From NCBI GenBank assembly GCA_903864575.1, contig CAIPGK010000410.1:1-34353 (forward strand): DNA of 34,353 bases, written 5' to 3'. The DNA is from an uncultured Chloroflexota bacterium. GTDB taxonomy: Bacteria > Chloroflexota > Chloroflexia > Thermomicrobiales > UBA6265. The notes beneath the pieces were generated by a model. That model worked only from the letters and a program-made list of their open reading frames with translations, made no database searches and was not told the DNA's origin. Shown in pieces: positions 11,110-34,353 of this stretch. The translations under genes and the position numbers were made by a program. The stretch's first letter is position 1. Each line of letters starts with the position of its first letter.

Positions 11110-11151
11110 TGCGCGCCTCCGGCCACGGTAGCGAGGGGGAGCGTGCGCCTC

Positions 11152-11180
11152 TCGACAGCAGGGAGAGGGGTGGCTAGCAT
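11152..11180 (+). promoter_or_regulatory. Probable crtI promoter in the cruG-crtI divergent region
   Basis: TCGACA (11152-11157; one mismatch to TTGACA), a 17-nt spacer and TAGCAT (11175-11180; 4 of 6 matches to TATAAT) lie about 40 nt before the crtI GTG. The opposite-strand promoter for cruG-cruF must overlap this short region, but I could not place it. Confidence 0.4.
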
Positions 11181-11219
11181 GGACGGGAACGGTCCGGGAT
11201 CGAGCGGAAAAGAGGCCTC

Positions 11220-18598: not shown

Positions 18599-18609
18599 TC
18601 AGCCGCGCC
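18586..18609 (-). terminator. Hairpin overlapping the iolD stop codon
   Basis: A perfect 9-bp stem (ggcgcggct 18586-18594, agccgcgcc 18601-18609) with a 6-nt loop spans the end of iolD. The TGA stop (complement of 18599-18601) lies at the loop/stem edge. It is likely a termination or 3'-end-protecting structure, without a T-run. Confidence 0.45.
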
Positions 18610-20470
18610 AGAGGCGGGCCGAGGTGCGGGCCTCGTAGCCTTCGCGGGCCTGCTGCACGCCGGGTCGGCCCGAGACCTCCGCGACCGGGACATCCCACCA
18701 GCTCTCGAATCCGGGAACGCCGCGGCCGGGCTCGATCTTGACGTCGATCAACACGGTGCGGTCGGCCTGCTTCGCCTGATCGAGGGCGCGGTGCAGTTCG
18801 GATTCGGTTCGGGCGCGGAAGGCGAGCGCGCCGAGGCTTTCGGCATTTTTCGCGAAGTCGATCGGCATGAATGGGCCGTCGAGCACACCGGTCTCCGGGT
18901 TCCGGGCGCGGAGTTCGTTGCCGAACGCCGGGGACCCGCATCCCATCTGCAGACCCTTGATGCACTGGAAGCCGCCGTTGTCGATGAGGACGATGACGAG
19001 CTTCATGCCCTCCTGCAGGGAAGTCACGATCTCGGTGTGGAGCATCAGGTAGGAGCCATCGCCGACCATGATGAAGACCTCGCGGGAGGGGTCGGCCATC
19101 TTCGCCCCGAGGGCGCCAGCGATCTCGTAGCCCATGCAGGAGAAGCCGTATTCGAGGTGATAGCTCTTGGGATCGACCGGCCGCCACAGCTTGAGCAGAT
19201 CTCCCGGCATGGAGCCCGCTGCGCAGACGACCACATCGCGCGGTCCAGCGGCGTCGTTGACCATGCCGATGGCATTGGCCTGCGTCAGGTTCTCCGGAGT
19301 GGTGACGCGGAGCAGGGAGTCCACGGTGGCGTCCCACTCGGCCTTCCAGGTCTCGGCGGCGTCGCCCCAGGCGGCGTCGGCGCGATAGCCGGCTGATGCT
19401 GCGGCGGCGTGGAGGGCCTTGAGGCCTTCGCGGGCGTCGGCGACGAGCGGCAGGGAGCCGAGTTTATGGGCGTCGCGAGATGCCACGTTGATGCTGATGA
19501 ACGTCACGTCCGGGTTGGCGAAGGCGGTGTGGGAGGCCGTCGTGAAGTCGGAAAGACGGGTGCCGACGGCGATCACGAGATCTGCGTCACGGGCGAGGCG
19601 GTTGGCGGCGAGACCGCCATTGGAGCCAACCGCGCCTGCGTTCCATGGGTGATTCCACGGAAGCGCGCCCTTGCCGCCTTGCGTCTCCAGGACCGGGATG
19701 CCGAAGGCGTCCGCGAAATCGGACAGCTCGGCGGTGGCTTCGGAGTAAATCGTGCCGCCGCCGGTGACGATGACCGGGCGGCGAGCCTGCCGCAGCAGGG
19801 CGACGGCGTCCGCGAGGGCATCCGGGGCGGGGACGCCGCGATAGATGGTGTGCACCTTCGGCGCGAAGAACCCGAGCGGGTAGTCGTAGGCCTCGGTCTG
19901 GACATCCTGCGGCAGGCAGATGGTGACGGCGCCGGTGTCGGCCTGATCGGTGAGCACGCGCATCGCCTCAGGCAGGCTGGCGAGCAGTTGATCCGGGCGA
20001 TTGATGCGGTCCCAGAACCGGGAGACCGGACGGAAGGCGTCGTTGGCCGAAATGTCGAGACTCATGGGGTGCTCGATCTGCTGGAGCACGGGGTCGGGCA
20101 TGCGGTTGGCGAAGATGTCGCCCGGGAGGAGCAGCACCGGCAGGCGGTTGACGGTGGCGGTTCCCGCGCCGGTCACCATGTTGAGCGCGCCAGGGCCGAT
20201 GGAGGAGGTGCAGGCGAAGGTCTGCAGGCGATTTTTCATCTTGGCATAGGCGATCGCGGTGTGGACCATGCCCTGTTCGTTCTGGGGGCGGTAATAGCGC
20301 AGGTCGTCGCGGAACTCCTCGAGCGCCTGACCCATGCCGGAGACGTTGCCGTGGCCGAAAATGCCCCACATGCCGGCGAAAAGGGGGTTCTGCCTGCCGT
20401 CGCGGGCGACATGCTGGTTGGCAAGGTACTTGACGACGGCCTGCGACATCGTCAGGCGAACGGTCTCCAT
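18599..20470 (-). CDS. iolD: 3D-(3,5/4)-trihydroxycyclohexane-1,2-dione hydrolase
   Basis: A 623-residue thiamine-diphosphate enzyme that opens the ring of trihydroxycyclohexane-1,2-dione to 5-deoxy-D-glucuronate in myo-inositol catabolism. The N-terminal TPP-PYR domain contains LTMSQAVVKYLANQ and GMWGIFGHGNVSGMGQAL, diagnostic of IolD rather than acetolactate synthase. The central domain follows (VIVTGGGTIYSEA). The C-terminal TPP-PP domain has GDGSYLMLHTEIVTS and DNGGFQCIKGLQ, the Mg-ThDP motif. ATG 20470 has agggag at 7 nt. A very long open frame on this strand extends through the next genes but is antisense to them. It is divergent from an EamA transporter and separated from the other iol-type genes in the window. 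Its product is the substrate of the IolB encoded at 29326-30228. Confidence 0.93.
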   Translation of the reverse strand: METVRLTMSQAVVKYLANQHVARDGRQNPLFAGMWGIFGHGNVSGMGQALEEFRDDLRYYRPQNEQGMVHTAIAYAKMKNRLQTFACTSSIGPGALNMVTGAGTATVNRLPVLLLPGDIFANRMPDPVLQQIEHPMSLDISANDAFRPVSRFWDRINRPDQLLASLPEAMRVLTDQADTGAVTICLPQDVQTEAYDYPLGFFAPKVHTIYRGVPAPDALADAVALLRQARRPVIVTGGGTIYSEATAELSDFADAFGIPVLETQGGKGALPWNHPWNAGAVGSNGGLAANRLARDADLVIAVGTRLSDFTTASHTAFANPDVTFISINVASRDAHKLGSLPLVADAREGLKALHAAAASAGYRADAAWGDAAETWKAEWDATVDSLLRVTTPENLTQANAIGMVNDAAGPRDVVVCAAGSMPGDLLKLWRPVDPKSYHLEYGFSCMGYEIAGALGAKMADPSREVFIMVGDGSYLMLHTEIVTSLQEGMKLVIVLIDNGGFQCIKGLQMGCGSPAFGNELRARNPETGVLDGPFMPIDFAKNAESLGALAFRARTESELHRALDQAKQADRTVLIDVKIEPGRGVPGFESWWDVPVAEVSGRPGVQQAREGYEARTSARLWRG

Positions 20471-20604: not shown

Positions 20605-20677
20605 CGGAGCCTGACGGGCTCCGGGTGGGCCCGGGCCGCGGAATGTGCGGTGTGGGGCGAGCGAAAGGAACGGGTCG

Positions 20678-21622
20678 ATGCACCGGTCGGCGAGCGGCCG
20701 CGCTTTCCTGCTGGTGCTGACGACGGGCATCCTGTGGGGGACCATCGGCGTCGGCGCAAAGGGTGTCTACCAGATGACGACGCTGGATGCCGTGTCGGTC
20801 ACATGGCTGCGCGCGCTGGTGGCGGCGTGCGCCTGCATCGCGCTGGCAGGACCGACCCTGTGGCGCGGGGCATCGAGCGCGACCCGGCGTGACCTCGCGC
20901 TGATGGCGGGGCTGGGGGTCGTGCTCATCGTCTACCAGTGGTGCTATCTCGCCTCGATCGATCGCCTTGGCATTGCGCAGGCAACGCTCATCGCCCTCTG
21001 CGTGCCGCCGGTGCTGGTCGCCGCCGTCTCGGCCATCTTCCTGGGAGAGACCATGACGCCGCGGCTGTTGGTCTCCCTGCTCGGGGCGCTCGCGGGGACG
21101 GCGCTGCTGGTCGGCGCGCCAGTCGCCGGCGGTGGTCCGAGGGATGGCGGCGCGCTGCTGGCCGGAGTGCTGCTCGGGCTGGGATCGGCGGCAGGGGTAG
21201 CTGGCCACGCGCTCGGCAGCCGCACGATCGCCGGGTACCATGATGCGCTGCTGCCGCTGGCGATCGGCTTTCCGGCCGGGACCATCGCGTTCGCGCCGGT
21301 GGCGCTCGGGCGCGGGTTTTCGCTGGATCAGCCACTGATCGGCTGGTTGCTCGTGCTCTACCTTGGCGTCGTGCCCTCGGCGATTGCGTACCTGTTGTAC
21401 CAGCGGGGGCTGCGCCATTTGCCAGCCTCCACCGCGACCATCATTACGCTGGTGGAACCATTGACCGCGGCCGTGCTGGCGTGGATGCTCTTCGGGGAGC
21501 GTCTGGGGCCACTGGGGTTGCTGGGCGGCGGGCTGCTGCTCGCGTCGATCGTCGTGCTGTCGCGGCAATCTGCCGCACCCGGCGGGCAATCCGCCGCCGA
21601 GGCCATCGCGCTCGGAGAATAG
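20678..21622 (+). CDS. EamA-family (DMT superfamily) transporter
   Basis: A 314-residue inner-membrane protein with ten predicted helices in two EamA repeats. The first starts with FLLVLTTGILWGTIGVGAKG, and the second contains GVVPSAIAYLLYQRGLRHLPASTATIITLVEPLTA with the characteristic EP near the end of helix 9. Such proteins usually export metabolites or amino acids, or move nucleotide sugars. ATG 20678 follows gaaaggaa; the in-frame extension to 20645 is not needed. It is divergent from iolD and 15 nt ahead of the two-GT4 gene, so it may either serve the inositol gene or export precursors for the glycan made downstream. Confidence 0.85.
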   Translation: MHRSASGRAFLLVLTTGILWGTIGVGAKGVYQMTTLDAVSVTWLRALVAACACIALAGPTLWRGASSATRRDLALMAGLGVVLIVYQWCYLASIDRLGIAQATLIALCVPPVLVAAVSAIFLGETMTPRLLVSLLGALAGTALLVGAPVAGGGPRDGGALLAGVLLGLGSAAGVAGHALGSRTIAGYHDALLPLAIGFPAGTIAFAPVALGRGFSLDQPLIGWLLVLYLGVVPSAIAYLLYQRGLRHLPASTATIITLVEPLTAAVLAWMLFGERLGPLGLLGGGLLLASIVVLSRQSAAPGGQSAAEAIALGE

Positions 21623-21637
21623 AATGAGCTTGACCCA

Positions 21638-24600
21638 GTGACGAACGTCCGCGCCGCCGGGTTTGAGGCCCTGAACCGGGGTGATCCTCTCGCGGCCGCG
21701 CCGTTGCTGCATGCGGCGGTGGCCGCCGAACCGGGAGACGGCGCGGCGTGGCTGGCGCTCTCCCGCGCTCAACTGGAGTGTGCCGACCTCTCGGGCGCCT
21801 GGCTTTCGGCGACCACGGCCTGCGCGAAGGATTCCGCGAGCGCCGAGGCGGCCCTGCACCTCGCGGCGGTCGAGTTGCGGCGGGGCGACCGCGGTGCGGC
21901 GGGGCGCGTGCTGGCAACCTTCGCGGCGCGAGCGGGTGAGGACCCGGTCAGGCTGAGCCCGATCCTCGATCGCCTGCTGGAGTTGCGGGACTGGACGCGC
22001 GCCGGGGAGGTTGGGCTCGCGATGCGCGCCGCGCAGCCGGACGACGAGCGAGCCGTCTTCTCGATTGCAGCGGCCCTGCAGGCGGCGGGTGACCTGGCTG
22101 GCGCGCGGGAAATGGCGGGTTCGCTCGGGGAGGATGCAGCCGTTCGGATCGCGATCCGGCTGCTGCTCGCGGAACATGCTCCGCTCGATGCGTGGGCGTT
22201 GACGCAGGCCACCGCCGACCACCTGCTGACATCGCGGACGATCGAGCAGGTTGCACGGGATCTGCTGGCCGCGGGCCATCTCAGCCCGGCCGCGGCCGCG
22301 GCCGGGCGCGCTCTGCTGCTCGATGACGGCAATCATGCGGCGCGGCGGCTTCTCGATGTCGCGCGGGGCCGGCGCGCCGCCCTGCTGGGAACGTTCCCTC
22401 CGCCTGCCATCGAGGCGCGGGCGTGGGAGCCCATCCCGGGCCGGGCCCTGCTGGTCGCGGCGGCTTCGGCGCCGCGAGTGCTGAACGGCGGAACCGTTCG
22501 CACGCAGGAGATTGCCCGCACCCTCGCCGCGTTCGGGATCGACGAGCATGTCGTCACCAATCCAGGCTTTCCCTGGAGCCAGGGCTGGCTCAGCGATCCG
22601 CCGGAGGAACTGGTCGATGGCGTTCATCACCATCGCCTGCGACCGCCGACCGTGGAGTGGACAGCTGCGCGAGGGATCGATCTACCCGCGCTCCGGGCCG
22701 GCATGCCCGCGCGTGACGACGCGCTTGTCACGCTGATCGCGGAACAGATCGCGACCGTGGCGCATGAGGTGCGCCCGGCCGTGCTTCATGCCACGCGCGC
22801 GCCCCTGTACGCTGAGGCGTCCCTGCTGGCAGGGCGCGCGCTCGGCCTGCCGACGGTTTGTGAGGTGCGTGACTGGAGCGACCGCCTCTGGCTCACGGGC
22901 GATCCCGCGCGGAGCGGGAAGAGCGAACAGATGGGCCTGCTCTTCGATCAGGATACCCGTTGCATGGCTGCCGCCGATCACGTGGTGGTGTTGACCGATG
23001 CCATGCGGGAGGAGGCGATCGCGCGGGGAATCCCGGAGGACAGGATCACGGTCGTGCCAATTGCCATCGATATCGGAGCGATCCGGCCGATGGAGCCCGA
23101 TCCCGACCTGCGGGCAAACCTCCGCATTCCCTCCGGCGATGTGGTGATCGGGCATCTCTCCTCGCTTGCGTCGTATGAAGGGGTGGGCGATCTGATCGAC
23201 GCGTTCGCGCGTCTCGTCGGGGAGGGAGCCGCCGCGACGCTCCTGGTGGTTGGCGACAGCCGGGAGCGGCCAGCGCTCGTGGCGAGAGCGGCGGCCGCCG
23301 GCGTTGCGGATGCCGTTCGATTCGCCGGGCGTGTGCCTCATGAGGAGGTTGTCCGCTGGTATGCGTTGATGGATGTCATCGTCATCCCGCGCCGTGTCAC
23401 CCCGGCGACGATCATGCTGGAGCCAAGCAAGTTGACGGAGGCGATGGCGACCGGCAAGCCGGTGGTCGCGTCCGGTGTTCCCCCGATCCGGGCAGTGCTC
23501 GTGAACGGGGAGACCGGCGTGCTGACGCCTCCGGGAAGTCCTGCGGCCCTCGCTCGCGCCCTCTCCGGGCTGATCGGCGATCCGGCGCGACGGCAGCGGA
23601 TCGGCATGGCCGGGCGGGAGTGGATCGTCGCCAACCGGGAGCTGTCGACGGAGGCAGGGAAACTGGCGGGCGTTCTGGTGGAGGCCGAGTCAACCATCGG
23701 CCCCCGGGCAGGGCGGGATGGCGTCGCGTCCCTGGCGGCGGCGCGCCGGGAGCCGCGTCGGATTCTGCATCTGGTGGAAAACACCGGGCCGTGGGAACTC
23801 TCCGGCAGCACGGTGCGGACGAGCGAAATCCTGCGCTGGCAACGGGAGGCGGGGATCGAACCGCACGTCGCGACCTTGCTCGGCAACCCCTGGAGAGGCG
23901 GCGCGGCGCGCGCGCCGCTGATGGAGACGGTGGATGGCATTCCCCACTACCGGATTGCGCCGGGAATCCGGGGGTGGAACGGGAAGGTGGAACTCGAACG
24001 GGAGGCCGTGATCGCCCGGATGCCGGCGACCGTCGACGAGCGCCGGACCATGCAGGATACCGTGTTGCGCCGGCTTGTCAGGACGATCGAGCCGCAGGCG
24101 ATTCACGGCGCGACCAGCATCGACGCGATGGCGGCAGCCGTCAGGGTCGCCGGCCCCATGGGGTTGCCGGTGATCGTCGAGGTCCGCGGATTCCACGAGT
24201 GGATCTGGCTCTCGGCGGATGCGAGCCGTACTCCGGATGATGCCGGTTTCACGTCCCGGCGGACTCGCGCAACCGAGCAGATGCTTGCGGCGGACCGGGT
24301 CGTCACGCTTTCGGAGGGCATGGCGCGGGAGATCGCGGGGCGCGGGATTCCGATGGAGCGCATCCACGTCGTTCCCAACGCGGTGGACCCCGAGCGATTT
24401 CGGCCCCGGCCGCGGAATGCGGCGCTCGGCGCGCGCGTCGGGATCGGGCCTCATGCGTTTGTGCTGGGCGCGATCACCACGCTCTCTCGCTGGGAAGGAC
24501 TGGAGGCGCTGCTCGATGCGGTCGCCATCCTGCGCCGGGAGGGCGCTCCCGCCGTGGCGTTGCTCGTCGGCGGCGGGGAGATGGCGGACCGGCTCGGGCA

Positions 24601-25021
24601 ACGGGCTGCGGATCTCGGGCTCGGATCCGCCGCGGTGCTGACGGGGCAGGTGCCGTGGGAGGAGGTCCCGCAGTGGTATTCCCTGATCGACGTCTTCGCC
24701 GCGCCCCGCCGGGACCTCCCGTTCACGCGACTGGTCACGCCGCTCAAGCCCTACGAAGCAATGGCGATGGAGCGTGCCGTGATCGTCTCTGACCTGCCCG
24801 CCCTGCGCGAGATGGTGGTGGAGGGCGTGAACGGACTCTTCATGCGGCCGGGTGATGCCGAGGATCTCGCGGACATCGCGCGGGGATTGATGACCGATCC
24901 CGCGCGCCGCCGCGACCTCGGCCGTTCTGCCCGCGAATGGGTCATCGCCAACCGGGCGTGGGTTGACAACGGGCGGCGCTATCTGGAGCTCTATCGCGAG
25001 TTGGGACTGGACATGACATGA
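21638..25021 (+). CDS. Large bifunctional glycosyltransferase: TPR-like head plus two GT4 units
   Basis: A 1,127-residue cytoplasmic protein. Residues 1-250 are alpha-helical, with TPR-like repeats (for example GDPLAAAPLLHAAVAAEPGDGAAWLALSRAQ). Then two homologous GT-B (GT4-like) glycosyltransferase units follow. Each begins with a strand and a GGTVRT/GSTVRT motif (284-289 and 723-728), and each has VVPIAIDIGAIRP / VVPNAVDPERFRP linkers. Their donor-site motifs are EPSKLTEAMATGKPVVAS and TPLKPYEAMAMERAVIVS. Both units end with an R(E)WI/VIANR helix. This indicates an internal duplication giving two active sites that may add two sugars in turn. The start is GTG 21638 with a weak ribosome binding site, 15 nt after the transporter. 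Its last codon overlaps the start of the epimerase gene (ATGA), so the two proteins are made together. Acceptor unknown. Confidence 0.8.
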   Translation: MTNVRAAGFEALNRGDPLAAAPLLHAAVAAEPGDGAAWLALSRAQLECADLSGAWLSATTACAKDSASAEAALHLAAVELRRGDRGAAGRVLATFAARAGEDPVRLSPILDRLLELRDWTRAGEVGLAMRAAQPDDERAVFSIAAALQAAGDLAGAREMAGSLGEDAAVRIAIRLLLAEHAPLDAWALTQATADHLLTSRTIEQVARDLLAAGHLSPAAAAAGRALLLDDGNHAARRLLDVARGRRAALLGTFPPPAIEARAWEPIPGRALLVAAASAPRVLNGGTVRTQEIARTLAAFGIDEHVVTNPGFPWSQGWLSDPPEELVDGVHHHRLRPPTVEWTAARGIDLPALRAGMPARDDALVTLIAEQIATVAHEVRPAVLHATRAPLYAEASLLAGRALGLPTVCEVRDWSDRLWLTGDPARSGKSEQMGLLFDQDTRCMAAADHVVVLTDAMREEAIARGIPEDRITVVPIAIDIGAIRPMEPDPDLRANLRIPSGDVVIGHLSSLASYEGVGDLIDAFARLVGEGAAATLLVVGDSRERPALVARAAAAGVADAVRFAGRVPHEEVVRWYALMDVIVIPRRVTPATIMLEPSKLTEAMATGKPVVASGVPPIRAVLVNGETGVLTPPGSPAALARALSGLIGDPARRQRIGMAGREWIVANRELSTEAGKLAGVLVEAESTIGPRAGRDGVASLAAARREPRRILHLVENTGPWELSGSTVRTSEILRWQREAGIEPHVATLLGNPWRGGAARAPLMETVDGIPHYRIAPGIRGWNGKVELEREAVIARMPATVDERRTMQDTVLRRLVRTIEPQAIHGATSIDAMAAAVRVAGPMGLPVIVEVRGFHEWIWLSADASRTPDDAGFTSRRTRATEQMLAADRVVTLSEGMAREIAGRGIPMERIHVVPNAVDPERFRPRPRNAALGARVGIGPHAFVLGAITTLSRWEGLEALLDAVAILRREGAPAVALLVGGGEMADRLGQRAADLGLGSAAVLTGQVPWEEVPQWYSLIDVFAAPRRDLPFTRLVTPLKPYEAMAMERAVIVSDLPALREMVVEGVNGLFMRPGDAEDLADIARGLMTDPARRRDLGRSAREWVIANRAWVDNGRRYLELYRELGLDMT

Positions 25022-26133
25022 GGGTGCTGCTGGCTGCCGGGGTGCGGCCCAATTTCGTCAAGGCCGCGCCGATCATGACCGCCCTGCGAGGGCGCGGTCA
25101 CGACGTGCGTCTGGTCCACACCGGCCAGCATGCCGACGACGCGATGTCCGGCGCGTTCTTCCGCGATCTCGCTGTGGCGGAGCCGGATGTTCATCTCGCG
25201 GCGGGAGCGGTGGAATCTGCCGCATCGCCAGCCCGCCGGATGGGCCGGATCATGGCCGGGTTCGAGACCATCGTGCTCGGTGAGCGGCCGGACTGGGTCG
25301 TGGTGATGGGCGATGTCGACTCCACCCTCGCCTGCGGGATGGCGACCGCGCGGCTGCGGCGGGTGACCGGCGCGCGGGTGGCCCACGTCGAGGCAGGGCT
25401 CCGCTGCGGCGACATGGATATGCCCGAGGAGTTCAACCGGCGGCTGACCGATCATCTCTCCGACGTGCTGCTGGCGCCGGACGAGGGGGCTGTGCGCAAT
25501 CTGGCTGCCGAGGGCATCGCCGCGGCACAGGTCGAGATGGCCGGAAACGTGATGATCGATACCCTCCTTGACCGGCTCGCCGTCGCGCGCGCGCGGGACC
25601 TTCCCGGGACAATCGGCGCGTCGCCCGGCGGGTATGCCGTCGCCACGCTGCACCGGCAGGCGAACGTGGACGACCCGGCGATGCTCTCGACGATGCTCGA
25701 TGGTCTCGCGGCAGCGGCCCGGCTGCTGCCGATCATCCTGCCGCTCCATCCCCGCACTCGCGAGCGAGCCGCTGCGTTTGGGCTGGAGGATCGGCTGTCC
25801 AGCTTCCGGGTGATCCCGCCGCTCGGCTATCTCGACATGCTTTCGCTGGTCGATGGCGCGGCGCTGGCGCTGACCGACTCCGGGGGGCTGCAGGAGGAAA
25901 CGACCGTTCTCGGCGTCCCCTGCGTGACGCTGCGCCCGAGCACCGAACGGCCCGTCACCGTCACCGAAGGGACGAATCGGCTGATTCCGTGGCCGCCCAC
26001 CGCGGCGGGTATCGCCTCCTGCGCCGACGCAGCGCTGGCTTCGGGAAGGCTGGCCGTCGGCGAGCGCTCGCCCGTTGGCTGGGACGGCGCGGCGGCGGGG
26101 CGCATCGTGACCGCGATGGAGCGCCGGGGGTAG
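25018..26133 (+). CDS. wecB: UDP-N-acetylglucosamine 2-epimerase (non-hydrolysing), WecB type
   Basis: A 371-residue cytoplasmic GT-B-fold epimerase that converts UDP-GlcNAc to UDP-ManNAc for surface glycans. Diagnostic motifs are GVRPNFVKAAPIM at the N-terminus, VHTGQHADDAM, VVMGDVDST (Asp 99/101), VAHVEAGLRCGDMDMPEEFNRRLTD (Glu 125, Glu 138), ATLHRQANVDD (His 212) and LTDSGGLQEE. All the acidic and histidine positions used in catalysis by known WecB proteins appear present. It overlaps the glycosyltransferase stop by 4 bp, so the ManNAc-type donor may be used by the preceding two-domain enzyme. It ends before a convergent terminator-like hairpin. Confidence 0.92.
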   Translation: MRVLLAAGVRPNFVKAAPIMTALRGRGHDVRLVHTGQHADDAMSGAFFRDLAVAEPDVHLAAGAVESAASPARRMGRIMAGFETIVLGERPDWVVVMGDVDSTLACGMATARLRRVTGARVAHVEAGLRCGDMDMPEEFNRRLTDHLSDVLLAPDEGAVRNLAAEGIAAAQVEMAGNVMIDTLLDRLAVARARDLPGTIGASPGGYAVATLHRQANVDDPAMLSTMLDGLAAAARLLPIILPLHPRTRERAAAFGLEDRLSSFRVIPPLGYLDMLSLVDGAALALTDSGGLQEETTVLGVPCVTLRPSTERPVTVTEGTNRLIPWPPTAAGIASCADAALASGRLAVGERSPVGWDGAAAGRIVTAMERRG

Positions 26134-26205: not shown

Positions 26206-27690
26206 TCAATCGCGGGATTGCGCGGCACGGGCGACCGCTTCGGCCTGAAGGGCGCGGCGGTCGAGCTTGCCCGACGGCAGCAACGGGAGGCGCTCGCGGA
26301 GGTCGAGCTCGCGCGGGACCTTCGTCGGCGCGAGCCGATCCAGCAGCCAGCGGCGGAGGTCTCGCCGGGAGACCTCCTGGCCGGGATGGAGCACGACGAG
26401 CGCGATGATGTCCTCCCCAAGCACCGGGTGAGGTGCGCCGATCGCGGCGGCGTCCGCGACGGCGGGGTGGGCGAGCAGCACGCGTTCGATTTCCAGCGGC
26501 GAGATCATCTCCCCGCCGCGGTTGATGAGGTGCTTGAGCCTGCCGGTGACGCGGAAGCGCCCCTCCGGATCGAGGACGCCGAGGTCGCCGGTGCGATACC
26601 AGCCATCGGGGTCACGTTCGGGGACGGTCGCGCCGATGGAGCCGGGAAAGACAATCGGGCCGCCAATGACGAGTTCTCCCTCCTCGCCGGGCGAACGCGG
26701 AGCGCCATCCGGACCGGCGATCCGGACCGTGTTCGGCAGCAGGGGAAGGTAGCGTGGTTCGGCGCCGGGCTCATCGTGCGGATCGCTGAGGGCGAGGCAG
26801 GGGGCCTCGGAGAGCCCGTAGTCGAAGATCATCGGGGCGTCGAAGCGGCGTGAGAGGGTCTCGGCGAGGGAGGCGGGCATGGGCGCGCTGCCGCTCATGA
26901 GCATGCGGAGGCGGGGCAGGGGGGCGTCGTCCGCGGCCATCAGCGCGGCGTACCAGGAGGGCACGCCGAGGATCCAGGTCGGCGGCGTCTCGCGGATGGA
27001 GGAGAGGACGGTGTGCATATCGGCGGCTGGGTGAATGAGGGCAGCGCTTCCCGCGAGCACGTGCCGAAAGAAGACCGTGCCCATCGCATGGTACGGCGGC
27101 GCGGCGATGAGGCCGAGGTTGTCCCGCGTGAACTCGAGCCGCTCCATCCACGCAGCCGTGGAGACCGCGAGTTGGCCGTGCGTGCGGGGGATGAGACGCG
27201 GTTCTCCGGTCGTGCCAGAGGTGGTGAGGATGATGGCGGGGTCTTCAGGGCTGCGCGGGGCCGGATCGATGGCGGGCGAAGCGCCGGGGATCAGCCAGCC
27301 GGGATCGAGCAGCAGGACCGGGCAGTCGAGCGCGGCGGCGGCTGCCTCGGTTTCCCGCGTGGCGATGGCGATGGCAGGACCCAGCCGATTCCCGAGCAAT
27401 CGCAGCGCGGCGGGCGGCGCGGCGGGGTTGAGTGGAACCGGCGCGGCCATTGCGGAGACGGCCGTGTTGACCACCTCGGCATCGCGGGACTGCGGGATGA
27501 AGAGGGCGATGCGCTCACCCGGAGCGACTCCAGCCTCGGCGAGTACGGCGGCGATCTGCCGGGTGACGCGCCACAGGCTGCCGTAATCGAGCGCCGGCAG
27601 GCCGGGCGAGAGCGCGGCGGGAGCATCGGGGGAGACGGTTGCCCAGTGGAGGATGGCTTCGGGAACGGTACGGAATTCGGGGGTGGTCAA
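26206..27690 (-). CDS. ANL-superfamily adenylate-forming enzyme (acyl-CoA synthetase / stand-alone A domain)
   Basis: A 494-residue enzyme predicted to activate a carboxylic acid as acyl-AMP and pass it to CoA or a carrier phosphopantetheine. All core motifs are intact: P-loop TTSGTTGEPR (156-165), YGLSE (291-295), GWYRTGDLG, GRLKHLINRGGEMISPLEIE and the C-terminal catalytic Lys in LPSGKLDR (K475). The INRGGE(K/M)I form is shared with EntE/DhbE-type and oxalate-CoA-ligase-type enzymes, but the substrate pocket cannot be read by eye. The start is TTG 27690, backed by aggag 7 nt upstream and a 4-bp TTGA overlap with the preceding ANL gene. The two genes are therefore translationally coupled and probably make enzymes for the same pathway. 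Confidence 0.88.
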   Translation of the reverse strand: MTTPEFRTVPEAILHWATVSPDAPAALSPGLPALDYGSLWRVTRQIAAVLAEAGVAPGERIALFIPQSRDAEVVNTAVSAMAAPVPLNPAAPPAALRLLGNRLGPAIAIATRETEAAAAALDCPVLLLDPGWLIPGASPAIDPAPRSPEDPAIILTTSGTTGEPRLIPRTHGQLAVSTAAWMERLEFTRDNLGLIAAPPYHAMGTVFFRHVLAGSAALIHPAADMHTVLSSIRETPPTWILGVPSWYAALMAADDAPLPRLRMLMSGSAPMPASLAETLSRRFDAPMIFDYGLSEAPCLALSDPHDEPGAEPRYLPLLPNTVRIAGPDGAPRSPGEEGELVIGGPIVFPGSIGATVPERDPDGWYRTGDLGVLDPEGRFRVTGRLKHLINRGGEMISPLEIERVLLAHPAVADAAAIGAPHPVLGEDIIALVVLHPGQEVSRRDLRRWLLDRLAPTKVPRELDLRERLPLLPSGKLDRRALQAEAVARAAQSRD

Positions 27691-29177
27691 CGGGTGCTCC
27701 TGACGGTGAGTTCGGCGACGAGCGCCGAGCGGTCGACTTTGCCCGCGGTGGTGAGCGGCAAACTGTCGCGAAACGAGAACGCGCGCGGGACATGGCTGGC
27801 GGGAATTCGGTCAAGCAGCCAGCGGCGAATCACGCGGGGGGGAATCGTCGCGCCGGGACGGACCACGACCACCCCCTCGAGGTCTTCGCCCAGCGTCGGG
27901 TGAGCTACCGGCAGGACGGCGGCCCCAATGATCTCGGGGTGGGAGAGCAATGCCTGCTCGATCGCTGCCGGGGATATCTTCTCGCCGCCGCGATTGATCA
28001 GGTGCTTGAGCCGCCCGGTGATGATGAAGGAGCCGTCGTCGGCCATGACGCCGAGATCTCCGGTGCGGAACCAGCCGCCGGGGAAGAATTCGCTGCCGTC
28101 GCCGCCAATGTAGCCGTGAAAGACGTTGGGCCCGCGAGCGACGATTTCGCCTTCCTCGCCGGGAGGCAGGCGTTCGCCGCCAGGTCCGGCGATGGAGACG
28201 GAACCGGGAACCATCGGACGGTAGCGCGGAACGCCGTGTTCCTCGTCATCCGGCCCGGCAAAGGCGAGGCAGAGCGCTTCGGTGAGGCCATAGTCGCGAT
28301 GCAGCGGCGCGCCGAACAGTGCGGAGACCGCACGGGCGCTATCTGATGGAAATGGAGCGGCGGTACTGATGAGCCGCTCGAAGCGGGGCACGGGTGGGCC
28401 ATCCGCCGCGGCGGCGAGCAGGGCTTCCCACCTCGATGGCGCGATGCTGCCCATGGTAGGCCGCCCGTGTCGGATGGCTGCAACGACCTCTGCTGGAGCG
28501 GTCGATCCCGCGAACACGGTGCAGGCTCCGGCGGCGACCGCCTTGACGAACGCTGCTGCCCCGAGGATGTGATGCGGCTGGGTGGCGCTCAGGAGACGCG
28601 CGCCGGGATGGAGCGCATGATGCCGGGCGACCAGCGGCTGGACATCGAAATACTGGGCGTGATGGCGCGGCACGAACCGGGGCAGTCCGGTACTGCCCGA
28701 GGTTGCGGTGATGGTCCCGACATCGTCCGGGCCCGGCATGCCGACGGGCGGTACTGCCGCGCCACGAGCGAGGCGCAGACCGGGCTGCAGCGCCACCACC
28801 GGGCAGCCGAGCGGCGCGGCGAGCGACTCCTGGCCAGGAGGAACGATGGCAAGGCATGGCCGCAGCCGCTCCCCGATGGCAGCCAGCACGGAGGGTGGCG
28901 CGGCCGGATCGAGCGGCGCGGCGGCGGCGGCGGCCATCGTCAGGGTGATGGCGATCCCGGCATCCCGGCCCATTGGCAGGAGGAGGGCGACGCGATCGGT
29001 CGGGCCGACGCCGTGGGAGCGCAGAGCCGCAGTGAATTCCGACGACCGTTCCGCGATGTCGCGGAAGGTGAGTTCAGGATGGCCGATGGCGATGGCGGCG
29101 ATTTCGTCCGGGCGCGTCCGCCCCTGGAACGAGATGATCTCGTCAAGGGTGCGCATGGTGGGCGATGGTGCGGGCAT
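27687..29177 (-). CDS. ANL-superfamily adenylate-forming enzyme, second copy
   Basis: A 496-residue paralogue of the neighbouring enzyme. Core motifs are intact: P-loop TATSGSTGLPR (region 157-167), YGLTE (296-300), GWFRTGDLG, GRLKHLINRGGEKISPAAIE and the catalytic Lys in TTAGKVDR (K480). The acyl-pocket region differs from its neighbour (SATQPHHILGAAAF against IAAPPYHAMGTVFF), so the two probably activate different acids. ATG 29177 follows tggaga at 6 nt; an in-frame ORF extends further up to 29393 through the terminator region and is not used. It sits after the iolB terminator, so it may start a separate transcript of two ANL genes. Confidence 0.87.
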   Translation of the reverse strand: MPAPSPTMRTLDEIISFQGRTRPDEIAAIAIGHPELTFRDIAERSSEFTAALRSHGVGPTDRVALLLPMGRDAGIAITLTMAAAAAAPLDPAAPPSVLAAIGERLRPCLAIVPPGQESLAAPLGCPVVALQPGLRLARGAAVPPVGMPGPDDVGTITATSGSTGLPRFVPRHHAQYFDVQPLVARHHALHPGARLLSATQPHHILGAAAFVKAVAAGACTVFAGSTAPAEVVAAIRHGRPTMGSIAPSRWEALLAAAADGPPVPRFERLISTAAPFPSDSARAVSALFGAPLHRDYGLTEALCLAFAGPDDEEHGVPRYRPMVPGSVSIAGPGGERLPPGEEGEIVARGPNVFHGYIGGDGSEFFPGGWFRTGDLGVMADDGSFIITGRLKHLINRGGEKISPAAIEQALLSHPEIIGAAVLPVAHPTLGEDLEGVVVVRPGATIPPRVIRRWLLDRIPASHVPRAFSFRDSLPLTTAGKVDRSALVAELTVRSTR

Positions 29178-29263
29178 GGCGGCTCTCCAGGTTGGGTAAA
29201 GTGCTGTGTCGCGCCGGGGCCGCCGCCGGTTGAAGCAGTATCCGAGCATCCGGCCGAAATCAG

Positions 29264-29302
29264 GAAGACCCCGGTCGCCACCGACCGGGCGCCGGGGTCT
29301 TC
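29264..29302 (-). terminator. Terminator hairpin downstream of iolB
   Basis: An 11-bp perfect stem (gaagaccccgg 29264-29274, ccggggtcttc 29292-29302) begins 24 nt after the iolB stop. On the minus strand it is followed by ctgatttcgg, with a short T-run. A smaller inner stem (ggtcg/cgacc) is nested in the loop. It is the best terminator candidate in the window, and it separates iolB from the two downstream ANL genes. Confidence 0.6.
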
Positions 29303-29325
29303 GGGAACGGCCGCGGCGTGGCGTT

Positions 29326-30228
29326 CTACCCGCGCTTGCCCGCCGGGCCGTTCTGCCGCTCGGCGATGTCATGGTAGGAGCCGATTCCGTCATTGAGCGC
29401 GGGCGCCCAGGTGCCGCGGACCCAGCCGTATCGGGGATCGTCGCTCGGCTGCAGGGTGCGCTCGCTTTCGTCGCCGGCGAGGACGTTCAGGTAGTAGGCG
29501 TGGTAGCCGTGGGCGACCGCGAAGGCATGGTAGCCCTCCTGCACGAGGAGGAGATCGCCATCGTGGATGGTCCAGGCGGCGTCGAAGCTGCCGTCATCGG
29601 TATACAGCCGTTGCAGGGCGAATCCGTCGCTCGGCTCGATCCGGTAGTAATAGATCTCCTCCAGATCCGCTTCGGCGGGCAGAGCGGAGATGTCATGCTT
29701 GTGCGGCGGGTAGGAGGACCAGTTGCCGCTGGGCGTGATGACTTCGATGACCAGCAGGCGATCGGCGGGGAAGTCCGGGCCGATGATGGTGTGGATCTGG
29801 CGGGCGGCGTTGCCCGCGCCGCGAATCTCGGTCGGGGTGTCTTCCGGGCGGACCAGTTTCGCCGGAAAGTGACGGTCCGCGCGGGCGCCGGTGACCGCGA
29901 GTTCGAGATCGGTCTCGGCGCGGACGACGAAGCTCGATTCGCGCGGGAGGTAGAGCGCCCACGGCTTGCCGGCGAAGACGTTTTCCCGGCCGCCGATTTC
30001 CCACGTGTGGCCCTCGGCCTCGACGACGCACCGGCCGGACAATGGCACGAGGGCGACCTCATTGACGTCGGTGTAGTGGCTCCAGGAGTGGCCCGCCGGC
30101 ACGCGCCGGACAATCAGGGAGCAGTACTCCCAATCCGCGCTTTCAGGGGTGACGTGGATGACCTCGCCATTCTTGCCGGGGTCGGCGCTGCGGACGAGAA
30201 GATCCTTGGGGGCGCGCGTGATGGCCAT
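29326..30228 (-). CDS. iolB: 5-deoxy-glucuronate isomerase
   Basis: A 300-residue bicupin enzyme that converts 5-deoxy-D-glucuronate (the IolD product) to 2-deoxy-5-keto-D-gluconate in inositol catabolism. Family marks include the conserved WEYCSLIVRRVPAGHSW opening, the central SSYPPHKHD metal-binding His cluster, LEEIYYYRIEPSDGFALQRLYTDD with a metal Glu, and GYHAFAVAHGYHAYYLNVLAG with further His residues. ATG 30228 has aggagg 4 nt upstream. It is flanked on both sides by ANL genes on the same strand rather than by other iol genes. The intergenic gap upstream is 123 nt and a strong hairpin follows, so it may be a one-gene unit that happens to sit inside the cluster. Confidence 0.93.
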   Translation of the reverse strand: MAITRAPKDLLVRSADPGKNGEVIHVTPESADWEYCSLIVRRVPAGHSWSHYTDVNEVALVPLSGRCVVEAEGHTWEIGGRENVFAGKPWALYLPRESSFVVRAETDLELAVTGARADRHFPAKLVRPEDTPTEIRGAGNAARQIHTIIGPDFPADRLLVIEVITPSGNWSSYPPHKHDISALPAEADLEEIYYYRIEPSDGFALQRLYTDDGSFDAAWTIHDGDLLLVQEGYHAFAVAHGYHAYYLNVLAGDESERTLQPSDDPRYGWVRGTWAPALNDGIGSYHDIAERQNGPAGKRG

Positions 30229-30351
30229 GATGCCTCCTGGATGGTCGGGCGGTGATGCGACTGGCGTCATGCTACCGCGACTGGAGTCCCGCAAGCCGCC
30301 GCCGACCCGGTCAGCGCATGCGTCGACGCGAGCCGTTCGGGGCGAATGCGG

Positions 30352-32466
30352 TCAGCGCGGCTCGAACAGGATCGACGCGATGGCGAAGCCAAGCGGCGGA
30401 GCAGACTCCTGCGAGTTCTTTCGCTTGTTCTTTTTCTTGCCCTTGCCGCCCTTTTTCCGGTTTCCTGCCGGGGCGGTGGTGGAAAAGGTGATGGTGGCGG
30501 GCTGGTTGGCGGGAAGATCGACGGGGATCGCCAGTTTGAACGCGCCCACCGGACGGAGCAGGAATGAATCCTCCGTGTCGCCCGCCGAAACGAGGATGAG
30601 GCGGCCGTTGCATTGCGGATCGTCACAGTGGCCGCGCAGAACGATTTCGCGTATCGGCAGTGACGGCGACACGGTGATGGCGAGGCGCTCCGCGAGCGGA
30701 CGGTCATGGCCAAAGGAGGGCATCCCGCCGACGAGGCGGACGGGGCCCTGAACGGGTGCGTCCGGAACCGCGGCAGCGGCAACCGGCGGGTTGGCCGGGG
30801 TCGGGGCCGGAGCTGGAGCCGAGGCCGGGGCTGGAACCGAGGCCGCAACCGGAGCCGGGGCCGCGGCGGCTTGCATCTTCTCGGCGGCTGCGCGCCGCTC
30901 GGCGAGGGCGGCCAATGCGGCCTTGACGGCCTCAGTCTCGGCGGCCTGGGCCTCGACACTAATTCTGGCGGCTGCGGCGGCTTCCGCGGCGGCAATGGTG
31001 GCGGCAAGGGCCGTGCGGTCCACTTGACCGTCGGGTGTGGTCGGGATGTCGTCCAGCATGGTGATCGAGCGAGGCACCTTGGTCACGGTGAGCCGGTCGA
31101 GCATCCAGCGGCGAAGTTCCCGGTTGTTCACCGCCGCGCCGGGGCGCAGGACGACGGCGGCCCGGAGATCCTCGCCCAGCAATTCATCAGGCACGCTGTA
31201 GATTCCGGCCGCGGCGACGCCGGGATGCGAGCGAAGCGCGGCTTCCACCTCGGCGGGGTCGATCAGGGTGCCGCCCCGATTGATCAGTGAGGTGGATCGC
31301 CCCGACAGGTGAAGGGCGCCGGACTCGTCGATAACCCCGCGGTCACCGGTGCGGAACCAGCCATCCGGCGTGAGGGAGGAGGGGTCGATGCCATCGTGGC
31401 CGATGTACCCGGCGAAGCGGTGTGGGCCGGTGGTCACGATGTCGCCCGGCTGACCGGCGGGGACCGGCTGGCCATCTTCGCCGAGAATGGCCACGGCGCC
31501 CGGAATGAGCGGCCAGAGCAAACCGGGTTGAACGTCGTCGACGGAGGCGAACGCCGTGTGGGGCGCTTCCGGCGGTCCATAGTCAATTGCGGCGGGCGCG
31601 CCGAAGACGGATAGAAGATCGGCGGCAAGGGTGGGATCGGGGGCGGCGCCAGAGATGACCAGCACGCGGAACGGATAATCCGGGCGGTCGGCAGTCATGG
31701 TGTCGATCAGGTGCCGATAGCGGTGCGGCGGCGCGGATGTCCAGGTGGGACGGAGGGCGAGAATGGCCGCCCGGGCCGCCGCCGGTTCGGCAGACGCGGG
31801 GGAGACGATCGTGCCTCCGGTCATGAGCGTGGCGACAGCGCCGGTCAGGGCCGGGTCCTGGAGGGTGAATCCGGGCACGAGCCAGCGATCGCGCGGACCA
31901 AGGCCGAGGGCGCGCGCGAAGGGCATCGCCGCGCCGACGAGCTGCCGGTGCTGGCGCGGCACGAGTCGAGGCTCGCCGGTCAGCCCGGCAGTGAGCAGGA
32001 GCATGGCGATCTGTTCCGGGCGGGGGTGCGGGGTCGCGTCGGGCGGATCGTCCGAATCGACGGCGAGGACCGGACCCGGATACACGTCGATCACGGGGCA
32101 ACCGAGGGCAGCGGCGCGCTCCGCGAGACCGGACGCGGCGAGCACGAGGCGTGGGCGGATGAGCGCCGCTGCGGCGGCCAATTCGGCGGCGGGCGCGAGG
32201 TGATCCAATGGCGCGGCGGGAGCAGCGGCGGCGACGGCCAGGGTGAGCACGAGCGCGTCGCGGGAGGGCGGCATCAGCAGCGCGACGGGGTCGCCGGGTC
32301 CGATGCCCGCCGCCCGGAGGGTTGCCGCGACCCGCCTCACGATGCGGTCGAGATCCCCCCAGGTGATGTCTGGCTGGTCGAGGGCGATGGCCGCGGGAGC
32401 GTCCCGCTGGACGGAGGCCCAGTTGGAGATGGCGCGTGGAAGGGTGTGGAAGGAGAGGAGGTTCAT
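30352..32466 (-). CDS. Degenerate ANL-superfamily protein with alanine-rich linker and novel C-terminal domain
   Basis: A 704-residue protein, about 210 residues longer than its paralogues. Residues 1-490 keep the ANL fold but are eroded at active-site motifs. The P-loop reads LLTAGLTGEPR (158-167) instead of TSGTTG, the A5 motif is YGPPE in place of YG[LT][ST]E, A8 is GRSTSLINRGGTLI, and the universally important A10 lysine is Gln (TPDGQVDR, Q481). GWFRTGDRG is kept. An Ala-rich helix (485-536) and a Pro/Ala linker (537-572) lead to a C-terminal domain of about 130 residues. This domain is strand-rich, with HCDDPQCNG (C614, C619) and a very basic loop KKGGKGKKKNKRKN (671-684), and I do not recognise it. 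ATG 32466 is chosen by alignment to the paralogues; the ribosome binding site is weak. It may be a non-catalytic partner or scaffold for the adjacent carrier protein. Confidence 0.78.
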   Translation of the reverse strand: MNLLSFHTLPRAISNWASVQRDAPAAIALDQPDITWGDLDRIVRRVAATLRAAGIGPGDPVALLMPPSRDALVLTLAVAAAAPAAPLDHLAPAAELAAAAALIRPRLVLAASGLAERAAALGCPVIDVYPGPVLAVDSDDPPDATPHPRPEQIAMLLLTAGLTGEPRLVPRQHRQLVGAAMPFARALGLGPRDRWLVPGFTLQDPALTGAVATLMTGGTIVSPASAEPAAARAAILALRPTWTSAPPHRYRHLIDTMTADRPDYPFRVLVISGAAPDPTLAADLLSVFGAPAAIDYGPPEAPHTAFASVDDVQPGLLWPLIPGAVAILGEDGQPVPAGQPGDIVTTGPHRFAGYIGHDGIDPSSLTPDGWFRTGDRGVIDESGALHLSGRSTSLINRGGTLIDPAEVEAALRSHPGVAAAGIYSVPDELLGEDLRAAVVLRPGAAVNNRELRRWMLDRLTVTKVPRSITMLDDIPTTPDGQVDRTALAATIAAAEAAAAARISVEAQAAETEAVKAALAALAERRAAAEKMQAAAAPAPVAASVPAPASAPAPAPTPANPPVAAAAVPDAPVQGPVRLVGGMPSFGHDRPLAERLAITVSPSLPIREIVLRGHCDDPQCNGRLILVSAGDTEDSFLLRPVGAFKLAIPVDLPANQPATITFSTTAPAGNRKKGGKGKKKNKRKNSQESAPPLGFAIASILFEPR

Positions 32467-32521
32467 GCGGAGAGTCCGTCCCAATCGAGCGGATGATTCG
32501 AGCGAATGATGCCTGTCTTTG

Positions 32522-33499
32522 TCACGGTCTGCGAGCTGCGCCAGCATCCGGCATGGCGGGTGGAGCAAGGTCGCGGGCAGCGAGCCAGATCTGGACTTCG
32601 GCGGCGATGGGAGCAATAGTCCTCGCGGCAAGCCCGTGCCCGGTGCTGGATGATGCGAGAAACCGGATGGTGGGAGTCCGGGTGGTAAGTGAGGCGTACG
32701 TTTCGGCTGCCGCGCGGTGATCCCAGTTGGGCGTCAGGAGCAGCGTGAGATCGAGATCGGCGGGCGTGGGCGCCCGGTGACTGAAGACGAAGCGGCGGAT
32801 GCCCTGTTCGCCGATGGCGACCGCTTCTTCTTCGGAAAGCGAGAGATCGGGATTGCCGAAATAGGGGTCGAGGAGAAAGATCGCGACGTCGCCGTCGTGC
32901 GAGAGGATGCGGCTCACCTCCCAGGCATAGGGAGCGCCCATGCAAATGGCCATGATGCGCCACGGTCCTGCGGGAGCGATGGCGCGAATGCCGGCGAGCC
33001 AGGTCTGGCACACATGGGTGAACCAGGCTTCCGGATCGGTGGCTGCCGAGGCTGGCGGCAACTCGGTGACGAGCGAGGTCACGCCGCGTTGCCCGGAAAG
33101 ATGGCGGGCGAGCCAGGCGACGTTGACCGGGTTGGGCCCGACCGCTCCGGGGGCGACGAAGAGGGGCGCGATGCCTTCCGCGCCGCGGGTGACGCTGACG
33201 GTCAGATTGTTCGGCGCCACGATCGGCGCCATGCCGTGCCGATCGATGCACTCCTGGACGAGGTCGGCCATCTCGCTTGGGGTCGGCGCTTCGATGACCG
33301 CGTGGTCGGGCAGGTCGATCCGAAACCAGGCCTCGATGCGGGTTTCCAGATAGAGCACGTCCATCGAATCCGCGCCGTGGGCGAAGAGGTCGGTGTCCGC
33401 GGTCACCGCATGTTGTGGCACGTCGAGAAGTTCCGCCCAAAAACTGCGGAGCACGTCGAGCGTTGTCGGCCGCTTGGGCTGGGTGGGGGAGGACGTCAC
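32522..33499 (-). CDS. Fused carrier protein-thioesterase (ACP/PCP-TE didomain), apparent Cys nucleophile
   Basis: A 325-residue protein with two domains. Residues 12-88 form a phosphopantetheine carrier domain: DLFAHGADSMDVL contains the GxDS attachment site with Ser45. Residues about 100-312 form an alpha/beta-hydrolase of the NRPS/PKS thioesterase type, beginning APLFVAPGAVG and ending near TGHGLAARTIAPIA. The nucleophile elbow reads IMAICMGAPYAWEV where family members have GHSxGG, so Cys186 replaces Ser. Asp211 (FLLDPYF) and His288 (STGHG) complete a plausible triad. Cys thioesterases are rare; the obafluorin synthetase TE is a known example. The start is GTG 33499. The gene lies 55 nt before the degenerate ANL gene and after another ANL gene, consistent with stand-alone adenylating enzymes loading this carrier. 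Confidence 0.8.
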   Translation of the reverse strand: MTSSPTQPKRPTTLDVLRSFWAELLDVPQHAVTADTDLFAHGADSMDVLYLETRIEAWFRIDLPDHAVIEAPTPSEMADLVQECIDRHGMAPIVAPNNLTVSVTRGAEGIAPLFVAPGAVGPNPVNVAWLARHLSGQRGVTSLVTELPPASAATDPEAWFTHVCQTWLAGIRAIAPAGPWRIMAICMGAPYAWEVSRILSHDGDVAIFLLDPYFGNPDLSLSEEEAVAIGEQGIRRFVFSHRAPTPADLDLTLLLTPNWDHRAAAETYASLTTRTPTIRFLASSSTGHGLAARTIAPIAAEVQIWLAARDLAPPAMPDAGAARRP

Positions 33500-33638
33500 G
33501 TTCGGTCGTTCCTTTGCCTCGGGACTTGAGTACAGGAACCTGTCGCAGGGTCTCAGGCCAAACCGGGAATGTCACCGTGGTCATGTCCGGGAGTGTAGCC
33601 CTGCCGCGCGCGGGATGCCGGTGTGGTTGTGCGTCGAT

Positions 33639-34353
33639 TCACGGCGCGCCCCCGGCGTCCGGTGAGACCAGCAGAGAGGCAAGATCGCTCCGACTCAGTT
33701 TACCGGACCGGGTGCGGGGGAGTTGCGTCACGATGACAATCCGGCGCGGGGTTTTTCCCGGCGCGAGGTGGTCCAGCATCCAGCGGCGAAGTTCCCGGGC
33801 GGTCGCCTGCATGTTCGGATGAAGCGCGACCGCGGCGGCGGCCTCCTGCCCCGCGGTTTCGTCCGCGATACCGAAGACAGCGCACTCCGCGACAGCGGGA
33901 TGACCGGACAGCACGGTCTCGACCTCGCGCGGGTCGATCTTCTCGCCGCCCCGGTTGATGACGTCGTCATCGCGGCCGAGGATCGTCAGGAAGCCATCGG
34001 AGGAGAGCGTTCCCCGGTCGCCCATGCGGAACCAGCCGTCGGGCGTGAAGGCGCGCTGGTTGAGCGCCGGGTCGTCGAGGTAGCCGGGAAAGACCTCGTC
34101 TGCCGGGACGAGGACCGACCCGGCCTTGCCCGGGGCCACAGGGTGTCCCTGTTCATCCGCAATCCGCATAGCGACGATGGCGCGACCGACCGACCCGGCA
34201 GGCGCAGGGTGTCCGGGCTGTTCGAGCGCGACGGTCCCTGACTCGTTCGATCCGTAGCAATCCAGCACGGTGATACGGTGCGCCGCGGCGCGTTCCCGGG
34301 GTGCCTGCGGCAGGGAGATGCCGGCGACCAGGATGAACTCAAGCGCGCCGCCC
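33639..34353 (-). CDS. ANL-superfamily adenylate-forming enzyme, partial (runs off right edge)
   Basis: The frame is open to the window edge and about 237 C-terminal residues are seen. They include a DCYGSNESG A5-type motif, GWFRMGDRG, GRDDDVINRGGEKIDPREVE, and the catalytic Lys in LPRTRSGKLSR, so this copy looks active. The adenylation P-loop lies outside the window. It is a paralogue of the two intact ANL enzymes, sharing the RRWMLDHLAPGKTPRRI helix just before A10. It is the most upstream gene seen in the carrier/ANL cluster and leads into the carrier-thioesterase gene after a 139-nt gap. Its start and further upstream genes are not visible. Confidence 0.85.
   Translation of the reverse strand, partial: GGALEFILVAGISLPQAPRERAAAHRITVLDCYGSNESGTVALEQPGHPAPAGSVGRAIVAMRIADEQGHPVAPGKAGSVLVPADEVFPGYLDDPALNQRAFTPDGWFRMGDRGTLSSDGFLTILGRDDDVINRGGEKIDPREVETVLSGHPAVAECAVFGIADETAGQEAAAAVALHPNMQATARELRRWMLDHLAPGKTPRRIVIVTQLPRTRSGKLSRSDLASLLVSPDAGGAP

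Follow-up and report, generated by a model that had tools for sequence, protein, structure and literature searches.

To our knowledge, adenylation (A), carrier (T) and thioesterase (TE) functions combined without condensation are mainly known from fused fungal A-T-TE enzymes. On contig CAIPGK010000410.1 (C410; 34,353 nucleotides), which is the whole stretch of DNA analysed here and is referred to as the window, the same parts are separate and multiplied, and Cys takes the nucleophile position of the TE. As judged by sequence, a condensation-free system of stand-alone adenylate-forming (ANL) enzymes and a carrier-TE is threaded through the myo-inositol (iol) operon in two species of the order Thermomicrobiales.

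The TE of the fungal A-T-TE nonribosomal peptide synthetase (NRPS)-like enzymes for polyporic acid, atromentin and allantofuranone is reported to join two acyl units (PMC12105029, PMC9047271). These synthetases include adenylation, carrier and TE domains without a condensation domain, as here, but in each of them one A domain, for aromatic keto acids, is fused with the other domains into one protein, whereas the window encodes several free A enzymes and a Cys TE. The carrier-TE shares a Cys/Asp pair with AB3403, an NRPS termination module from Acinetobacter baumannii (PDB 4zxh) with a Cys nucleophile and the Asp after strand β6 (PMC11298585). In AB3403, however, four domains, condensation among them, are fused in one NRPS, whereas the carrier-TE here stands free and its genome assembly yielded no condensation domain. 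The peptidyl carrier protein (PCP)-TE didomains of sulfazecin SulM and obafluorin ObiF1 also have a Cys nucleophile, but they end full NRPS lines making β-lactams or β-lactones. In ObiF and SulM the Asp follows β7 (PMC11298585), whereas the free carrier-TE has its conserved acid (D/E) at the post-β6 position.

EntE/DhbE-type aryl-acid AMP ligases, which work on a carrier in trans, are, like the ANLs of the window, free-standing enzymes with INRGG and LIPRTH-like motifs, and are among the better solved-structure matches; however, the ANLs score far under the cut-off of the corresponding model TIGR02275, and no siderophore genes lie nearby. The canonical iolG-iolB-iolD operon contains the same three equivalogs, which are interrupted here by five ANLs, the carrier-TE and other genes. 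The literature was searched for adenylation enzymes associated with inositol genes, for NRPS work in Thermomicrobiales and for iol genes within biosynthetic clusters; these searches, in which subscription papers are mostly outside the coverage, returned nothing on this arrangement.

Interleaving of adenylation and inositol genes

The window is one entire contig of a metagenome-assembled genome (G000; 4.23 Mb, 822 contigs, 78% complete). It was compared with other genomes including G001, G002 and G003 from the same genus, G002 being a second species, and G025 and G031 from other genera. Families were called with Pfam domains and with NCBIfam/TIGR equivalog models, which have curated cut-offs.

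The last 12 bases of the window (34342..34353, AGCGCGCCGCCC) are identical to the first 12 bases of contig C426 of the same genome. This 12-mer occurs 14 times in G000, and contigs end in just two of these occurrences, namely the right end of C410 and the left end of C426. The join gives a single open reading frame (ORF) of 517 aa with no stop, corresponding to a complete ANL4 with all adenylation motifs, and C426 also contributes a fifth ANL and iolG. The extension to the right that was proposed in the preliminary description of this DNA completed the right-most ANL, and the region as then drawn proved incomplete, with ANL5 and iolG to be added. An N run upstream of iolG at the right end of C426 marks a scaffold gap on the upstream side of the operon.

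The joined run consists of iolG, ANL5, ANL4, the carrier-TE gene, ANL3, iolB, ANL2 and ANL1, the genes from ANL4 onwards lying on the minus strand of the window. Beyond ANL1 lie wecB, a double glycosyltransferase gene and EamA on the plus strand, followed by iolD on the minus strand (Table 1). The four ANL genes and one carrier-TE gene listed earlier on one strand are real, as judged by matches to PF00501, PF13193 and PF00550, but iolB had been overlooked, and with it the interleaving of iolG, iolB and iolD. Each of these three genes scores above its equivalog cut-off. They are not contiguous, being broken up by the five ANLs, the carrier-TE and other genes. The spacing in the run extends from 4-base overlaps (ANL5/ANL4 and ANL2/ANL1) to ~365 bases (iolG/ANL5), and ribosome-binding-like sequences precede iolG, iolB, ANL2 and ANL1.

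Table 1. Features of the interleaved locus and its flank, in window coordinates unless contig C426 (L001) is named.
Feature	Position	Strand	Evidence
iolD, third inositol gene of the split operon	18599..20452	-	TIGR04377 933 bits, cut-off 715
EamA-family transporter, candidate exporter	20645..21622	+	PF00892 119 bits; synteny
Large protein with two GT4 glycosyltransferase units	21638..25021	+	domain and family searches
wecB-like UDP-GlcNAc 2-epimerase	25018..26133	+	TIGR00236 237 bits, cut-off 210
ANL1, stand-alone adenylate-forming enzyme	26206..27690	-	PF00501 175 bits, PF13193 64 bits; motif alignment
ANL2	27687..29177	-	PF00501 157 bits; start codon preceded by CTGGAGAG
iolB, 5-deoxy-glucuronate isomerase	29326..30228	-	TIGR04378 316 bits, cut-off 205; ATG with AGGAGG upstream
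ANL3, degenerate ANL with C-terminal extension	30352..32466	-	PF00501 147 bits; motif alignment
Carrier-thioesterase didomain	32522..33499	-	PF00550 49.6 bits; TE by alignment and fold
ANL4, C-terminal part, cut at contig end	33639..34353; rest on C426, L001:12-851	-	PF13193 77 bits; joined ORF
ANL5	C426, L001:848-2389		overlaps ANL4 by 4 bases
iolG	C426, L001:2754-3767		TIGR04380 401.6 bits, cut-off 355

In 15 other genomes, including G001 and G003, iolB and iolD are at most about 230 bases apart with no ANL between them, and iolG is immediately upstream of iolB in 13 of the 15. The interleaved form is present in G000 and G002. In G002 it is spread over three contigs. On C360, iolG is followed by an ANL, GMC oxidoreductases, a RhaM-like gene, a carrier-TE and another ANL; on C82, three ANLs come after iolB; and C59 runs from an ANL through a carrier-TE and two EamA genes to iolD. 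In this genome iolG and iolB each adjoin an ANL directly, and a single EamA block separates iolD from a carrier-TE. Overlaps between the ends of these three contigs were sought and none was found, the contig order being taken from the gene order. Misassembly was considered as the source of the interleaving and is unlikely, because the G002 assembly, which is independent, shows it on three contigs and at all three genes, iolG, iolB and iolD.

The position of a genuine split acyl-loading system in the iol operon could nevertheless be incidental, the operon being a landing site for biosynthetic genes with no metabolic or regulatory tie to inositol. ANLs are inserted at two junctions (iolG/iolB and iolB/iolD) on the same strand and with short gaps in both species, and the G000 order of carrier-TE, degenerate ANL and iolB is compatible with the contig ends of G002, which argues for more than chance placement. 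The accessory genes at the same place differ, however (wecB and the double glycosyltransferase in G000; GMC oxidoreductases and the RhaM-like gene in G002), the plain iol operon is kept in G001 and G003, and the similar ANL-TE pairs of G025 and G031 lie away from iol loci. On balance, a purely incidental position appears somewhat unlikely.

Linkage of the ANL and carrier-TE genes themselves, suggested earlier from the window, recurs in relatives. The two kinds of gene are neighbours at two places in G002 as well as in G025 and G031, and in G025 (C365) they are also fused; the scattered, unlinked ANL genes that would have spoken against the earlier reading are thus not what these relatives show. 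This adjacency and fusion, at the level of gene order, support a joint function, which falls short of proving carrier loading itself. The G025 fusion (L033:10396-13929) is a single T-TE-A-T-TE chain in which two carrier-TE units flank one adenylation domain, an unusual arrangement. On another G025 contig (C4; L031:5044-11686), genes for a cytochrome P450 and an LLM-class oxidoreductase lie upstream of a carrier-TE/ANL pair in what looks like a separate natural product cluster.

Carrier-thioesterase and ANL enzymes

In the carrier-TE, the carrier Ser45 lies within GADSM, and the TE residues are Cys186 at the nucleophile position (AICMGA), Asp211 and His288. Pfam reports no TE half in the G000 protein and scores it above cut-off in the G025 homologue; alignment and fold confirm the TE in G000. 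The structure model, with a mean predicted local distance difference test (pLDDT) score of 82.5, matched the PCP-TE structures AB3403 (top, E 2e-11), ObiF1, EntF and SulM, and puts Cys186 at the nucleophile elbow, where strand 180-185 gives way to helix 186-200. Ser is the usual residue at this position. Cys is invariant there in all six stand-alone T-TEs of this family. Asp211 follows strand 205-210, and its site is D or E in 6/6, while the alignment of the six contains no conserved acid after the strand following this site. The carrier-TEs of G000 and G002 form one clade (100/98; tree support is given as such pairs, and alternative topologies were judged by the approximately unbiased (AU) test).

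The NRPS-fused TEs of Thermomicrobiales (L046, L116, L117, L118, L124, L135 and L139) have a Cys nucleophile in GxCxG as well, whereas most of the homologous TEs sampled from other phyla have Ser. An order-wide preference for Cys TEs is possible from these alignments.

Adenylation (PF00501), carrier (PF00550) and TE (by fold) are thus all present without a condensation domain. The A, T and TE functions of G000 are on separate genes, apart from the pairing of T with TE, and a single-chain fusion was seen only on the G025 contig C365. The absence of a condensation gene, noted earlier for the window, holds for the whole G000 assembly, as no PF00668 match was found in it or in the G002 and G003 assemblies. 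G001 has one condensation domain, next to two ANL-carrier fusions. The carrier-TE holds the sole carrier domain found in the G000 assembly, set against ~14 ANLs of the same clade, which fits the earlier idea of several ANLs facing one carrier. Since no fatty-acid acyl carrier protein was found in this 78% complete assembly either, incompleteness matters here. One ACPS-type phosphopantetheinyl transferase was found in G000.

PF00501 and PF13193 were matched on each ANL of the window, and the motifs INRGG(E/T) and RRW(L/M)LD are, as previously described, shared by ANL1-4. INRGG was dropped as a sign of local kinship, since oxalate-CoA ligase also carries it. The motifs of ANL1 (TSGTTGEPR and SGKLDR) and ANL2 (TSGSTGLPR and AGKVDR) are intact, and in the motif alignment ANL1, ANL2, ANL4 and ANL5 retain the P-loop and the A10 Lys. 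The A4 Asp, present in most NRPS amino-acid domains of that alignment, is absent from these four; among the five ANLs, only ANL3 has an Asp in the column. Given established A-domain chemistry, the missing A4 Asp makes α-amino acid substrates unlikely for ANL1, ANL2, ANL4 and ANL5.

The enzyme previously noted as degenerate is ANL3, which has a P-loop TAGLTGEPR with the Ser lost, GRSTSLINRGGT, and the A10 Lys replaced by Gln in PDGQVDR. The ANL located right after the carrier-TE on C360 of G002 has also lost the P-loop and A10 Lys, so that a degenerate ANL immediately follows a carrier-TE in both species. If the G002 contigs follow the inferred order, it would match the place of ANL3 before iolB; the tree neither establishes orthology of the two nor firmly refutes it (AU p 0.055, with a long branch). 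The C-terminal extra ~200 residues of ANL3 comprise an Ala/Pro-rich linker and a tail predicted to be all-β in a low-confidence model. This tail (window 30352-30753) carries a lysine-rich insert, KKGGKGKKKNKRK, and has neither a Pfam match nor a significant relative among 61 genomes of the order.

ANL1-3 are kin and fall together with the iol-linked ANLs that G002 carries on C82 and C59 (89/93, short of a firm clade), whereas ANL4 and ANL5 sit in another clade, which includes ANLs from contigs C324 and C699. The origin of all four originally listed ANLs by a single local duplication, as first proposed, is ruled out by the tree and the AU test (p about 1e-84). One clade of ANL4, ANL5 and the iolG-adjacent ANL of G002 is disfavoured (AU p 0.014). 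Further tandem runs of three ANLs each, without a carrier nearby, are present in G000 on C274 (L003:3080-8067) and C699 (L002:2450-6578), and EamA-like transporter genes lie slightly beyond the run on C274.

The family scores raise the possibility that each ANL is an ordinary acyl-CoA synthetase for catabolism that ignores the carrier, the role of the carrier-TE being unrelated. The top NCBIfam scores are to acyl-CoA ligase models, CoA ligases are among the closest solved structures, and the nearest to ANL1 are feruloyl- and fatty-acyl-CoA synthetases. However, no ANL reaches the cut-off of any listed NCBIfam family, the best scores being 251 bits against a cut-off of 476 for known acyl-CoA ligase equivalogs and 150 bits against 723.55 for aryl-acid AMP ligase TIGR02275. 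A clade model, built partly from these same ANL genes, gave roughly 500-630 bits on a dozen full-length G000 genes, compared with <260 on the other CoA-ligase-like genes of that genome, and the remaining ANLs of the same genomes likewise stay below 260. Moreover, clade relatives are fused to carrier domains in G001 (two ANLs on C73, close kin of those studied here) and to T-TE in G025. Simple CoA synthetases ignoring the carrier are therefore considered improbable.

The two species differ more in these genes than in the operon that surrounds them. The identity between G000 and G002 is 83% for iolD and 71% for both iolB and iolG, but 33-39% for the carrier-TEs and 37-41% for the iol-linked ANLs (full length). 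Decay of a biosynthetic cluster, with ANL3 a step towards loss and the fast divergence reflecting relaxed selection, would account for this low identity and for the catalytic residues lost in ANL3 and its positional counterpart. Yet every ORF is open, five are full-length in G000, four retain all adenylation motifs, and the persistence of a degenerate copy right after the carrier-TE in both species suggests retention; decay is accordingly held to be very improbable.

Proposed acyl transfer and its tie to inositol use

The preferred reading, to which we assign a probability of about 0.45, is a split NRPS-like system that does without condensation and is interwoven with the myo-inositol operon. 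This system would load acids other than amino acids onto a Cys carrier-TE for transfer to an acceptor and be expressed together with inositol catabolism. The apparently competent, free-standing ANL1, ANL2, ANL4 and ANL5 would adenylate carboxylic acids other than α-amino acids and pass the acyl group in trans to the phosphopantetheine of the single carrier-TE. The TE would take the acyl group onto Cys186 and transfer it to a soluble alcohol or amine as nucleophile, possibly a cyclitol or sugar; alternatively, it could join two acyl units. The dimer, lactone or thioacid products suggested earlier are hypothetical. EamA may export the product, and ANL3, with its adenylation residues lost, probably partners the carrier-TE in a structural or docking role. 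Because the ANL and carrier-TE genes share the iol operon, common transcription would tie production to inositol use, which production probably follows.

Several observations weigh against this reading. None of the evidence places any ANL on the carrier instead of CoA, and the CoA ligase scores and structural neighbours described above point the other way, although all scores are far under the cut-offs. His288 is kept in four of the six stand-alone T-TEs and missing in two. The 33-41% identity of the ANLs and carrier-TE across species, against 71-83% for iolG, iolB and iolD, indicates that substrates may differ or that some genes may be decaying. Furthermore, at 78% completeness, carriers or condensation domains may be missing from the G000 assembly.

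The interleaving suggests that cells feeding on inositol produce a small acylated compound, and a compound of the inositol pathway may be the acceptor or a substrate. A more specific form of the preferred reading is unlikely as a whole. It holds that the ANLs charge the Cys carrier-TE to acylate inositol or an inositol-derived intermediate, or that the acid being activated is one of the sugar acids of the iol pathway; the non-catalytic ANL would be a scaffold, and an acyl-cyclitol or related product would be made and secreted only during inositol catabolism.

As the inositol pathway suggests both an inducer and candidate substrates, it offers a direct handle on this small, possibly inducible system, which would be a tractable entry to the natural products of Thermomicrobiales. 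With a degenerate ANL retained next to the carrier-TE in both species, non-catalytic adenylation-like partners become a testable question as well.

Neighbouring genes

In G000 and G002 alike, EamA lies on the stretch that separates the ANL block from iolD, with two copies in G002. Neither the wecB-like gene nor the double-GT4 gene was seen at the matching place in G002. Elsewhere in the window, at 11220-12728, is a gene of the phytoene desaturase family (TIGR02734, 629 bits), flanked by ORFs at 9910-11223 and 12778-14322 that have no Pfam match. The double-GT4 protein is 1127 aa long with two complete GT4 units, and scores above the cut-off of the PEP-CTERM/XrtA-associated model TIGR04063.

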